From positions 1 through 64,000 of the forward strand of contig NZ_LNDC01000094.1 of assembly GCF_001870905.1 (NCBI RefSeq): a DNA stretch of 64,000 nucleotides. Direction: 5' to 3'. This DNA is from Geitlerinema sp. PCC 9228. GTDB lineage: Bacteria; Cyanobacteriota; Cyanobacteriia; Cyanobacteriales; PCC-9228. Shown in pieces: positions 3,583 through 32,125 of the stretch. A program made the position numbers and the translations under genes. How positions within the stretch are numbered: position 1 is the stretch's first letter; each line of letters starts with the position of its first letter. The notes below the pieces were generated by a model, which saw only the letters and a list, made by a program, of their open reading frames with translations, searched no databases and was not told the DNA's origin.

Positions 3583-3703
3583 AGTGTTTGCTTAAGTAGT
3601 GCTGCCCTAGACAACAAAATCGATCGACATAAAGGGAAAAATCTGGAGCGTTGGGAGATGGGGAGTTGCACTTGTTGTAGCACGAGACGGCGGCGTTTGG
3701 CTG

Positions 3704-23421: not shown

Positions 23422-23940
23422 GTGAGTACGTCGCACACGATAAAACAAATTCCGGCAACTTGGGTAACGCGGGATAATTTTTTGCCTTTTGGTCAGGCAA
23501 TTTTTCCGATGGCTGATGACAAACCTTTCGATCGCGAAGATGCCCAGTTGTGTCTCGATCGCGGTACGCCTCGATTTTATATTATGCGTCTGTCAAAATG
23601 TGGGTGCCGTTTCCACACTATTACCCGCCACAGCCAATGCACCCAGTGTTTGGGGTCTTTGCAGGGGAAAGATTGGTATATTGCAGTAGCCCCGCCTAGC
23701 GATAAAGATTATCCGGAGATTGAAAAAATGGCGGCTTTTCGCGTTCCGGGGAATTGTTTTATTAAGTTGGGATTGGGCACTTGGCATGCGGGACCGCTCC
23801 TCGAGCATGAGGAAGTGAATTTTTATAACTTAGAATTGAGCGATACGAATCTTCGCGATCGCTTTACCTACGATTTCTACAACCAGGATAATTTGGCGTT
23901 TGAAATTGTTTCTCCGCCGGAGGTTGCCGTTCATACGTAG
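23422..23940 (+). CDS. ureidoglycolate lyase-like cupin
   Basis: The product is 172 residues with a GTG start at 23422 (an AAGGAG-like site lies about 12 bases upstream). The family marker GTWHAGPLL (near 116) and the preceding cupin strands match the ureidoglycolate lyase fold, which in other bacteria splits ureidoglycolate to glyoxylate and urea in allantoin breakdown. It carries an unusual C-G-C-x12-C-x2-C stretch (residues 55-72; SKCGCRFHT...SQCTQC) that could bind metal. No other purine-degradation gene is nearby, so the activity is uncertain. Confidence 0.75.
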   Translation: MSTSHTIKQIPATWVTRDNFLPFGQAIFPMADDKPFDREDAQLCLDRGTPRFYIMRLSKCGCRFHTITRHSQCTQCLGSLQGKDWYIAVAPPSDKDYPEIEKMAAFRVPGNCFIKLGLGTWHAGPLLEHEEVNFYNLELSDTNLRDRFTYDFYNQDNLAFEIVSPPEVAVHT

Positions 23941-24092
23941 CATCGGGGCGTCGGGGCATCGGGGCGTCGGGGCATCGGGGCGTCGGGGCATCGGGGCGTC
24001 GGGGCATCGGGGCGTCGGGGCGTCGGGGCATCGGGGCATCGGGGCGTCGGAGCATCGGGGCGTCGGAGCATCGGGGCGTCGGAGCATCGGAG
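23941..24092. repeat. octanucleotide tandem repeat, 19 units of CRTCGGGG
   Basis: Nineteen exact-length 8-base units, mostly CATCGGGG alternating with CGTCGGGG and ending in CGTCGGAG/CATCGGAG variants. The array starts immediately after the TAG of the upstream gene. Because 8 is not a multiple of 3, all frames stay open and give spurious octapeptide-repeat ORFs on both strands, which should not be annotated as genes. Confidence 0.95.
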
Positions 24093-24103
24093 AAAACAAC
24101 CAA

Positions 24104-24194
24104 TTATATCTCCCAAGCTCACGCTCGGTAAGCTCCCACGCTCCCACGCTCGGTAAGCTCCCACGCTCCCACGCTCGGTAAGCTCCCACGCTCC
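24104..24194. repeat. 25-bp direct repeat (CTCGGTAAGCTCCCACGCTC type), about three units
   Basis: The segment repeats CTCGGTAAGCTCCCACGCTC + CCACG about three times, directly after the octanucleotide array. It belongs to the same simple-sequence class seen at 1029-1060 and 50830-50862. Confidence 0.8.
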
Positions 24195-26842: not shown

Positions 26843-28153
26843 ATGGCACACGTTGCAGTTATTGGCGCTGGATTGGCGGGATTGCCAACTGCCTACGAGC
26901 TAAGGCATATTCTACCTCGCCAACACCGCGTTACCCTGATCTCCGACAAACCCAACTTCACCTTTACCCCATCGCTGCCCTGGGTAGCCTTCGACCTGAC
27001 CCCATTAGAGCGGGTCCAGCTTGACGTAGGCAAATTGCTGAAAGGGCGCAACATCGACTGGATCCACGGCAAAGTCAACCACATCGATCCAGAAAACAAA
27101 ACCCTCGTCGCCGGAGAACAAACCCTGGAATATGACTACGTGGTCGTAGCCACCGGTCCGGAACTTGCCACCGATGCCATTGCCGGTTTGGGTCCCGAAA
27201 ACGGCTACACCCAGTCGGTGTGTAACCCCCACCATGCCTTAATGGCGAAGGAAGCTTGGCAGAAATTCTTACAAGACCCCGGTCCCTTGGTTGTGGGTGC
27301 CGTTCCGGGAGCGAGCTGTTTTGGACCGGCTTACGAATTTGCCTTGCTGGCAGACTACGTTTTGCGCCGTAAGGGTATGCGCGATCGCGTGCCCATCACC
27401 TTTGTTACCCCAGAACCCTACGTCGGACATTTGGGCATTGGCGGCATGGCCAACTCCGCCGAACTAGTCACCGACCTGTTAGAAAACAAAGGCATTCGCG
27501 TTCTGCCCAATACCGCCGTCAAAGAAATCCACCCCGAACACATGGACCTCGACAGTGGCGAGCAGTTGCCCTTTAAATATGCCATGCTGCTGCCGCCGTT
27601 CCGGGGACCAGCCTTTCTGCGGGAAGCTCCCGAACTCACCAACCCCAAAGGATTCGTACCGGTTACCAACACCTACCAGCATCCCAAATACGAATCCGTC
27701 TACAGTGCCGGCGTCATTGTGGAAATCAACCCACCCGAAAAAACCCCGCTGCCGGTGGGCGTTCCCAAAACCGGACAAATGACCGAAGCCATGGGCATGG
27801 CAGCCGCCCACAACATTGCCATCAAACTGGGCGTCAGCAAAGCCAAACCTGTGCAACCCACCCTAGAAGCCATTTGCATTGCCGACTTTGGTGATACCGG
27901 CATTGTGTTCGTCGCCGACCCAGTACTGCCCGATCCTAAAACGGGCACACGCCGGCGCGCCATTACCAAACGCGGCAAATGGGTCAGCTGGTCGAAAACC
28001 GCCTTTGAAACCTTCTTCCTCAGCAAGATGCGGTTCGGTTTGGCCGTACCCTGGTTCGAGCGTTGGGGCTTGCGGTTTATGGGCTTGTCGCTGGTAGAAC
28101 CTTTAGACACCACTCGGGAAACCGGCAACCAGGCATTCGCCTCAAAAAGCTAA
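26843..28153 (+). CDS. sqr: sulfide:quinone oxidoreductase, type I-like
   Basis: The product is 436 residues. It has an FAD dinucleotide motif at the N-terminus (VAVIGAGLAGLPTAYEL), the ATG motif near 103 (VVVATGPEL), and three cysteines at C127 (SVCNPHH), C159 (GASCFGPAYEF) and C345 (LEAICIADFGDTG). These match the catalytic trio of bacterial SQR (127/159/353 in Rhodobacter). A C-terminal amphipathic region (FFLSKMRFGLAVPWFERW) suits membrane attachment. The enzyme oxidises sulfide and feeds electrons into the plastoquinone pool. The sequence resembles the SQR known from cyanobacteria able to photosynthesise with sulfide. AGAGGATAT precedes the ATG. The arsR gene downstream points to sulfide-responsive control. 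Confidence 0.9.
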   Translation: MAHVAVIGAGLAGLPTAYELRHILPRQHRVTLISDKPNFTFTPSLPWVAFDLTPLERVQLDVGKLLKGRNIDWIHGKVNHIDPENKTLVAGEQTLEYDYVVVATGPELATDAIAGLGPENGYTQSVCNPHHALMAKEAWQKFLQDPGPLVVGAVPGASCFGPAYEFALLADYVLRRKGMRDRVPITFVTPEPYVGHLGIGGMANSAELVTDLLENKGIRVLPNTAVKEIHPEHMDLDSGEQLPFKYAMLLPPFRGPAFLREAPELTNPKGFVPVTNTYQHPKYESVYSAGVIVEINPPEKTPLPVGVPKTGQMTEAMGMAAAHNIAIKLGVSKAKPVQPTLEAICIADFGDTGIVFVADPVLPDPKTGTRRRAITKRGKWVSWSKTAFETFFLSKMRFGLAVPWFERWGLRFMGLSLVEPLDTTRETGNQAFASKS

Positions 28154-28305
28154 AATCAAGATTTTTTGAATTTGGGATAGAGGCTAGGGACTAGGGAATA
28201 GAGATGGAAATGGCAGATACCGAGTTGGCTCGGCTGTCCGTCTCTACTCTCTATTGCCTATTCTCTACTCCCAACCAATCAAGTTACCTCTACAGGTGAA
28301 TGCGT

Positions 28306-28602
28306 ATGGATCTTGCTCTTGAACCCCACGAACTGGAAAATTTGGCCAATCGGTTCAAAATCTTGAGCGAACCGAGTCGCCTCCAAATCCTGTCTGCTAT
28401 TTGCAACGGCGAATGTAAAGTACAAGAAATTTGCGATCGCACTGGCTTATCCCAAGCCAACGTATCCAAACACTTACATTTGCTCAAAAATGCCGGTGTG
28501 GTGGCTTGTCGCCGCGTGGGGGTATGCCGGTACTACCGAGTGATCGACCCGGATTTGCTCACTTTATGCATGAGAGCCCGCCAAAAGTCACAACCTTCCT
28601 AG
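28306..28602 (+). CDS. ArsR-family winged-helix repressor, SqrR/BigR-like
   Basis: About 98 residues from MDLALEPHELENL. The ATG at 28306 is preferred to that at 28300 because CAGGTG lies at a proper distance. The winged helix is clear: SEPSRLQILSAI, VQEICDRTGLSQANVSKHLHLL as the recognition helix, and a wing GVCRYYRV. It holds six cysteines (C33, C37, C43, C68, C74, C88). C33 and C88 fall near the two positions that form a per/polysulfide bridge in SqrR/BigR, so reactive-sulfur sensing is inferred from alignment by eye and from the neighbouring sqr. A metal role is not excluded given the extra Cys. Confidence 0.85.
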   Translation: MDLALEPHELENLANRFKILSEPSRLQILSAICNGECKVQEICDRTGLSQANVSKHLHLLKNAGVVACRRVGVCRYYRVIDPDLLTLCMRARQKSQPS

Positions 28603-31105: not shown

Positions 31106-31134
31106 TAGACAAAAAAGTTGGGATGAGGTATAAT
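31106..31134 (+). promoter_or_regulatory. sigma70-type promoter of unit 1
   Basis: TAGACA (31106-31111), a 17-base spacer and a perfect TATAAT (31129-31134). The predicted transcription start is near 31141. Unit 2 keeps both hexamers and the spacing although the spacer bases differ. Confidence 0.75.
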
Positions 31135-31140
31135 AGGTAA

Positions 31141-31305
31141 TACATAGGGCGAGGGGACTCGCTGTAAAGAAGGGGGAGTTGAATGGGACACTCTAACCCA
31201 AACATCTAACCTGCTCGAAAATATTTTTATTATTTTTGCCCTGCCTAGATGTTTGAGCAAAGGAACCTCAACCAGAACCTTCCCCTCCGCTAGGGGGTTT
31301 GAAAA
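31141..31305 (+). ncRNA. candidate small RNA / mini-ORF unit 1
   Basis: From the predicted start the transcript has a hairpin GCGAG-GGGA-CTCGC (31150-31163), a strong AGGGGGAG ribosome site, an 8-codon ORF (31183-31209), and a long-range stem CAAACATCTA / TAGATGTTTG (31197-31206 with 31246-31255) whose 5' arm covers the last ORF codons. Then comes CCCCT-ccgct-AGGGG with a T-rich tail (about 31282-31320) as possible terminator. About 118 bases of it recur in unit 2 with three substitutions. I do not match it to a known RNA family. Confidence 0.5.
31183..31209 (+). CDS. candidate 8-codon ORF (MGHSNPNI), unit 1
   Basis: ATG follows AGGGGGAG by four bases and is followed by seven sense codons and TAA. 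The peptide would be MGHSNPNI. In unit 2 the single base change inside the ORF (TCT to TCC, Ser) is silent. Such a short ORF could be a regulatory leader or a genuine micropeptide; it may also be chance. Evidence is limited to the ribosome site and the two-copy comparison. Confidence 0.4.
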   Translation: MGHSNPNI

Positions 31306-31553
31306 ATTTTCCTTTTTGATGAGAAAAAAAGAAATGAGGGAAAATTGGCTTCCTAGCTAAGCCAGAATTGTTATGTTTAAATCATACCAAGCTCGTCCCG
31401 TTTTGTCAAGTTTTTCCTGTCCCATCCGGCGAGGGGATAAGGAAGTAGCGCGTCGAAAACCTTCTCAACGGAAAAAGCCTCCTCCAGCCAGAACCAGATT
31501 CTTCTGGTAGGGATCTGCTTGTACGGAAAATAGCGATCGCTGCCACAGCCAAG

Positions 31554-31582
31554 TAGACAAATCAATTAGAATGCCCTATAAT
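31554..31582 (+). promoter_or_regulatory. sigma70-type promoter of unit 2
   Basis: TAGACA (31554-31559), 17-base spacer, TATAAT (31577-31582). The hexamers and spacing equal those of unit 1 while most spacer bases differ, which suggests selection on the promoter itself. Confidence 0.75.
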
Positions 31583-31588
31583 AGATGG

Positions 31589-31780
31589 TACATAGGGCGA
31601 GGGCACTCGCTGTAAAAAAGGGGGAGTTGAATGGGACACTCCAACCCAAACATCTAACCTGCTCGAAAATATTTTTATTATTTTTGCCCTGCCTAGATGT
31701 TTGAGCGAAACGTCTGCAAAAAACTGCTGTTTCCCCGAACGGGCAGGGAGGAAAAAATTTTCCTTTGCACCAAGGTTCTA
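31589..31780 (+). ncRNA. candidate small RNA / mini-ORF unit 2
   Basis: Second copy of the unit: hairpin GCGAG-GGCA-CTCGC in which only the loop differs from unit 1, the GGGGGAG site, the 8-codon ORF, the CAAACATCTA / TAGATGTTTG stem (31645-31654 with 31694-31703), then CCC-GAAC-GGG and GGAAAAAATTTTCC near 31733-31765. Downstream of the stem the two units differ until the GAAAAATTTTCCTTT tail. Confidence 0.5.
31631..31657 (+). CDS. candidate 8-codon ORF (MGHSNPNI), unit 2
   Basis: Same peptide as in unit 1, with a silent TCC codon. The ribosome site GGGGGAG lies four bases before ATG. Real translation is untested. Confidence 0.4.
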   Translation: MGHSNPNI

Positions 31781-32125
31781 TAAAATTGCCTATATACCAT
31801 TTACTATACCACAATAAACAACTTTTATCAAGAGTTCTAGCAACTGTCAGCCCCAGATTTGGTGCCAGATATGGAAACCAGACAACGATATTGCCGTAAA
31901 TATACGGATGCTAGGGGACAAAAGCAGCAACCATAATGAATAACAATTGAAGTGTCAGAATAGTTGGGAAAAGAATCAACTAGGAGGGGATGGTTATTGG
32001 CAATGGTGGGAAACGAACAAAAGCGGCGAAAAATTGTCGCACCCATTCTCCACCGCCAGACATTCTACCTTCTACCTGTCAGGCATATCCCCAACTCTGG
32101 TTGAGGAAACAATTCAAACGTAGCT

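Follow-up and report, generated by a model that had tools for sequence, protein, structure and literature searches.

The window, i.e., the whole stretch of 64,000 nucleotides that was analysed, contains two near-identical units on the plus strand, which start 448 bases apart, and each of them is opposed by a unit on the minus strand. The plus-strand units had been described in an earlier note on this DNA, while the minus-strand units and their promoters were absent from it. Each plus-strand unit (type A) is accompanied by one convergent unit (type B′), and thus the window contains four predicted RNA genes (Table 1).

Table 1. Positions of the predicted RNA genes, promoters and associated features in the window.
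Feature	Position	Strand	Remarks
Promoter of A1, TAGACA-N17-TATAAT	31106–31134	+	11/12 consensus; N17 in 20/22 A copies
RNA gene A1 (predicted, 3′ end provisional)	31142–31225	+	model R1, 96.3 bits
Parts of A1	5′ hairpin 31144–31166; hairpin 2 31172–31199; shared module 31200–31223	+	
ORF MGHSNPNI of A1	31183–31209	+	judged incidental; most A copies without ATG
Promoter of B′1, TTGACA-N17-TATGAT	31381–31409	-	
RNA gene B′1 (predicted, ends approximate), opposing A1	31229–31374	-	hairpin 31255–31285; shared module 31231–31254
Promoter of A2, TAGACA-N17-TATAAT	31554–31582	+	
RNA gene A2 (predicted, 3′ end provisional)	31590–31673	+	model R1, 98.7 bits
Parts of A2	5′ hairpin 31592–31614; hairpin 2 31620–31647; shared module 31648–31671	+	
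ORF MGHSNPNI of A2	31631–31657	+	judged incidental
Intrinsic-terminator-like sequence	31618–31647	-	hairpin 2 reversed + T-run; could end B′2 transcripts
Promoter of B′2, TTGATA-N17-TATAGT	31803–31831	-	
RNA gene B′2 (predicted, ends approximate), opposing A2	31677–31796	-	hairpin 31703–31736; shared module 31679–31702

It was verified that both plus-strand promoters have the letters claimed earlier, that the loop is the only changed part of the GCGAG/CTCGC hairpin, that GGGGGAG lies four bases 5′ of the ATG, that both copies encode MGHSNPNI with a single silent change in the Ser codon, and that CAAACATCTA (31199–31208) and TAGATGTTTG (31246–31255) form a 10-bp stem. The near-identity of the two units was also confirmed, but an alignment of 120 bases (31141–31260 versus 31589–31708) revealed four substitutions instead of the three that had been counted.

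A second double-unit locus is present at C95:84867–85462. It has AGCCAGAACCAGATTCTTCTGGTAGGGATCTGC, which lies between the units (31441–31560 in the window, contig C94), in common with the window, and thus both loci probably arose by paralogous duplication.

Copy number and architecture of the family

The genome to which the window belongs (4.8 Mb, 223 contigs) was searched for further copies. With blastn, a window unit retrieved its sister copy at E=8.6e-55 and seven further copies at E<1e-20, which is much more than chance would give; many partial matches with weaker scores followed. In total, the genome contains at least 47 units, namely 22 of type A, 23 of type B′, and two odd ones (on contig C104 and, at 51 bits, on contig C185). 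The repeat that had been noticed earlier is thus real, yet it is not restricted to two units, because more than 40 further copies exist.

In type A the promoter is followed by an ACATAGG-hairpin, a ATAAAAAAGGGGRRG-hairpin and the sequence AAACATCTAASCTGC...AAAAATA. Type B′, on the opposite strand, has a different leader, a GGGGAA-hairpin, usually (G/A)CTC, and then the module that it has in common with type A. Other cyanobacterial families also have this shared module, AAACATCTAASCTGCNNAAAAATA, together with a hairpin and a promoter. In full loci, to which both units of the window belong, an A unit faces a B′ unit and the module starts are exactly 54 nt apart, while at the remaining loci an A or a B′ unit stands alone. 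As is general for multicopy sRNA families, the copies are intergenic, have their own promoters, and have a conserved fold on the transcribed strand.

Promoters and conservation profile

All 22 A copies were aligned. Each of them has a -35 and a -10 box at a distance of 16–18 nt (exactly 17 nt in 20 of the 22), and the hexamers score 8–12 of 12; for comparison, a score of 10/12 is reached by 2.6% of shuffled 60-mers. The B′ promoters score 9–12 of 12 at the same range of spacings in 23 of 23 cases. We infer from the sequence that the RNAs are expressed.

The mean identity of the nine full A units is 82% in the transcribed region, 45% in the promoter spacer, and 29% in the 60 bases upstream of the -35 box. 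For the two window A copies the respective values are 96%, 53% and 20%, and thus the promoter spacers diverge, as had been stated before. Hexamers and transcript are kept while spacer and upstream region are lost, which is the pattern expected from selection on both and not from a recently copied block.

Conserved fold and folding strand

In the two hairpins of type A, 99.3% of the cells are standard pairs, compared to 95.2% after shuffling. Twenty cells are altered on both sides (7.2 after shuffling), and five pairs are altered on both sides. When the partners were slid by 1–3 columns, pairing fell to 40–50%. Between A sub-types, columns 42–60 of hairpin 2 change from AU to GC and columns 43–59 from GC to AU, i.e., the changes are compensatory. 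The B′ stem GAANN/NNTTC shows covariation as well; it was counted from fixed anchors, because GGGG was misplaced in the MAFFT alignment; 112 of 115 cells are paired versus 95.9 after shuffling (sd 2.6), and none of 5000 shuffles was as good. Folding of single sequences was unremarkable, with z values from -2.3 to +0.1.

The wobble pairs differ strongly between the strands. On the promoter strand there are 49 G·U and no A·C pairs in type A, and 27 G·U pairs and one A·C pair in type B′, i.e., 76 versus 1. This excess indicates that the strand that would be transcribed from the promoter is the one that folds. Covariation, strand asymmetry of the G·U pairs, promoters that are kept despite divergence of the spacers, and relatives in other families strongly support the earlier suggestion that selection acts on an RNA.

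The eight-codon reading frame

The earlier note had also suggested a micropeptide, MGHSNPNI, or a translation-dependent switch. In line with this, the GGGGGAG-N4-ATG arrangement and the frame are kept in eight of the nine full A units (C173 has ATA instead of ATG), and the one change between the window copies is silent. However, the frame is kept neither in B′ units nor in the more divergent A copies, in which the only ATG belongs to another frame. The GGGGGAG run, for which a Shine-Dalgarno role had been proposed, makes up the 5′ side of hairpin 2, and covariation of GGGGRRG with CYYY explains it as part of a conserved stem. The 10-bp stem is formed by the A module and the reversed B′ module; it exists only where the two face each other and is missing from solo units. 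Because the frame is not kept and the solo units lack this stem, the family as a whole does not fit the switch model. The stop codon (TAA or TAG) lies within the module, and the letters of the peptide, including the variants MRHSNPNI and MRHFNPNI found among full A units, are set by the sequences of hairpin 2 and of the module. The ORF was therefore judged to be an incidental by-product of the fold, and a micropeptide or a translation-dependent switch is highly improbable.

Placement at the 3′ ends of convergent genes

At 23 of 25 solo units the next downstream gene is on the opposite strand (binomial p=2e-5); the neighbour genes are longest-ORF calls, and 8 of 10 that were checked have Pfam domains in the respective frame. 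The end of the convergent neighbour is often 40–95 nt away from the module start. Read in reverse, hairpin 2 of type A together with a T-run resembles an intrinsic terminator, and in solo A units it faces the convergent neighbour gene; facing genes may thus end each other's transcripts.

This placement, and the terminator-like hairpin with its A-tract, would also fit a terminator that acts in both directions, or an insulator, encoded in the DNA between convergent genes, with an RNA that has no role itself. But a terminator would need neither a conserved promoter nor an invariant 24-nt module, the reverse strand of B′ units has no T-run, and the G·U pairs indicate that it is the promoter strand that folds. 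This explanation is thus regarded as quite unlikely.

Two solo A units flank a gene for a YhaV-type toxin (PF11663) with a small adjoining ORF (C149:10674 and 11925), and a link of A units to a toxin-antitoxin module at this locus is possible.

Relatives in other cyanobacteria

Among 391 genomes of the order, 30 contain the module with up to three mismatches. By comparison with a reversed-pattern control most of the three-mismatch matches look like noise; the repeated matches in one genus (f9/g9) and in genome G005 (f6) are convincing. The exact pattern is matched in Phormidium willei BDU 130791, Phormidium sp. OSCR and SL48-SHIP, Geitlerinema sp. P-1104, and Synechococcales S06. The loci of the relatives have a promoter-like pair of boxes and the module, with an AU hairpin as well as a hairpin that abuts AAACATC, and the Phormidium hairpin GGATTC/GAATCC is replaced by GGTTCT/AGAACC in another genome. 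Close sequence relatives are confined to few cyanobacterial lineages. Several matches to the model or the pattern in further genomes were judged by eye to be false, i.e., simple repeats (L056, L063), coding sequence (L057) or coding-like sequence (L127, L128). In two genomes of family f12 (L122, L130) GGTAC...GTACC and GGTTTC...GAAGCC hairpins precede AAACATCTA, and the -35 box is not clear; judged by sequence these loci are possibly more divergent members.

Within the genus of the relatives the loci are orthologous and adjoin FtsH-like, ABC-ATPase-like and phycobiliprotein-like genes (named by eye). Between the genome analysed here and the other families, the comparison of flanks yielded only superfamily-level ABC and kinase matches.

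Cyanobacterial MITE and REP repeats are short, dispersed, multicopy and intergenic, and the units described here have the same properties. It has to be considered that they are a mobile or REP/MITE-like repeat that inserts beside the 3′ ends of genes, and that promoters and folds serve the element and have no cellular function. The lineage-specific amplification to 47 or more copies, the tandem double units on two contigs, the fixed 54-nt geometry of full units, and the lack of locus orthology to other families would agree with such an element. However, flanks and promoter spacers are unrelated even between copies that are 90–96% identical, and thus the copies have neither a fixed boundary of insertion nor an end in common; their identity fades at the promoter and no common outer boundary was seen. 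Furthermore, the hexamers, the compensatory pairs and the strand-specific G·U pairs are retained, in contrast to what characterizes such repeats, and several genomes of one genus have the loci in synteny. The module had no match in viral contigs, and the window segment had none in plasmids. A mobile repeat is therefore an unlikely explanation.

A GC-rich palindromic dispersed repeat with the look of a REP element (GGCGCTTCGCGAAGCGCCCCT...ACGCGTTGCGCCCCTAC) lies near some units (L036 and L038, near B′ units on C45 and C46).

Comparison with known small RNAs

The window gave no match to Rfam at the gathering score, and permissive scans of the loci of this genome and of the relatives yielded only unrelated sub-threshold matches. 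Neither Yfr2/Cyano-1 nor any other Rfam family reached its curated covariance-model threshold, and the earlier statement that no known family matches holds for Rfam.

Yfr2 is related to the Rfam family Cyano-1. Like the present family, the Yfr2 RNAs are cyanobacterial and multicopy, with two to nine copies per genome, unconserved loci and a short common motif (PMC6778093). The present family has no Rfam match, differs in motif and in fold, and is narrowly distributed; its approximately 47 copies include two convergent subfamilies. The motif of Yfr1 and Yfr10 is ACUCCUCACAC. These cyanobacterial sRNAs also have a motif that is conserved and single-stranded and lies on hairpins or between them (PMC6778093), but this motif is a different one, their copies are few, and the present family has no Rfam match. 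The FopS sRNAs of Bacteroides, with 14–15 paralogues bound by RbpB, resemble the present family in having many paralogous genes with their own promoters and a common core motif, which in FopS is a protein or target site (PMC11697453). In contrast, organism and sequence are unrelated, and RbpB as binding partner is a feature of FopS.

Proposed role of the RNAs

The units are best read, from the sequence, as a new, undescribed family of regulatory RNAs that are structured and whose genes have been greatly amplified. It is quite probable that the window contains two convergent pairs of genes (A1 opposing B′1 and A2 opposing B′2) of a multicopy regulatory-RNA family that numbers 47 genes or more. 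Each of these predicted genes comprises a sigma-70-type promoter, hairpins of variable sequence, and a hairpin GGG-stem-C(C/U)C, followed by the invariant, mostly unpaired module AAACAUCUAASCUGCNNAAAAAUA and often by an AU-rich hairpin. Since the module is invariant among paralogues whose other parts differ, the simplest reading is that it is a common binding site, and one RNA-binding protein or one RNA target would be the candidate partner. With one common site in all paralogues the family would act in trans by dose, i.e., by titration or redundant regulation. Facing units, or a unit and its neighbour gene, would have a 3′ region in common, and each would end the transcripts of the other. Gene conversion or a recent duplication may account for part of the module's identity among paralogues, because the full units keep the spacing of exactly 54 nt between the modules.

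Neighbour mRNAs that end at a reversed A hairpin would carry the antisense module in their 3′-UTRs. It is doubtful that this amounts to a network of tagged 3′ ends; if it did, any of the approximately 47 RNAs could pair with any tagged mRNA in trans, and dozens of unrelated genes would be coupled via one module.

With about 47 genes in 4.8 Mb, the family would rank among the largest families of paralogous small RNAs in bacteria, compared with published counts of 14–15 for FopS and nine for Yfr2. The clear common module means that the partner could be fished out directly, and the consistent convergent placement at gene 3′ ends raises the question of RNA control at cyanobacterial 3′-UTRs.

Pairing of the module with 23S rRNA was also considered. 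The best duplex has -24.9 kcal/mol, compared to a mean of -17.7 kcal/mol for shuffled sequences (0/60 as good), and the 23S partner TTGCGCAGGATAGGTG (L151, about 3587–3600) pairs with modules of the CTGCGC type and not with many other variants. This pairing was set aside, because the variable half of the module contributes most of it and the invariant AAACATC does not carry it, and because it weakens in many variants.

Elsewhere in the window, positions 23830–24189 are a simple tandem repeat, probably non-coding, in which long ORFs of the two strands overlap (PDAPTPRC... and GASGRRGI...). An SQR-like gene (26843–28153) and an ArsR gene (28300–28602) were identified with Pfam, and the genome of Geitlerinema sp. 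PCC 9228 carries sqr-arsR operons (PMC5061849).
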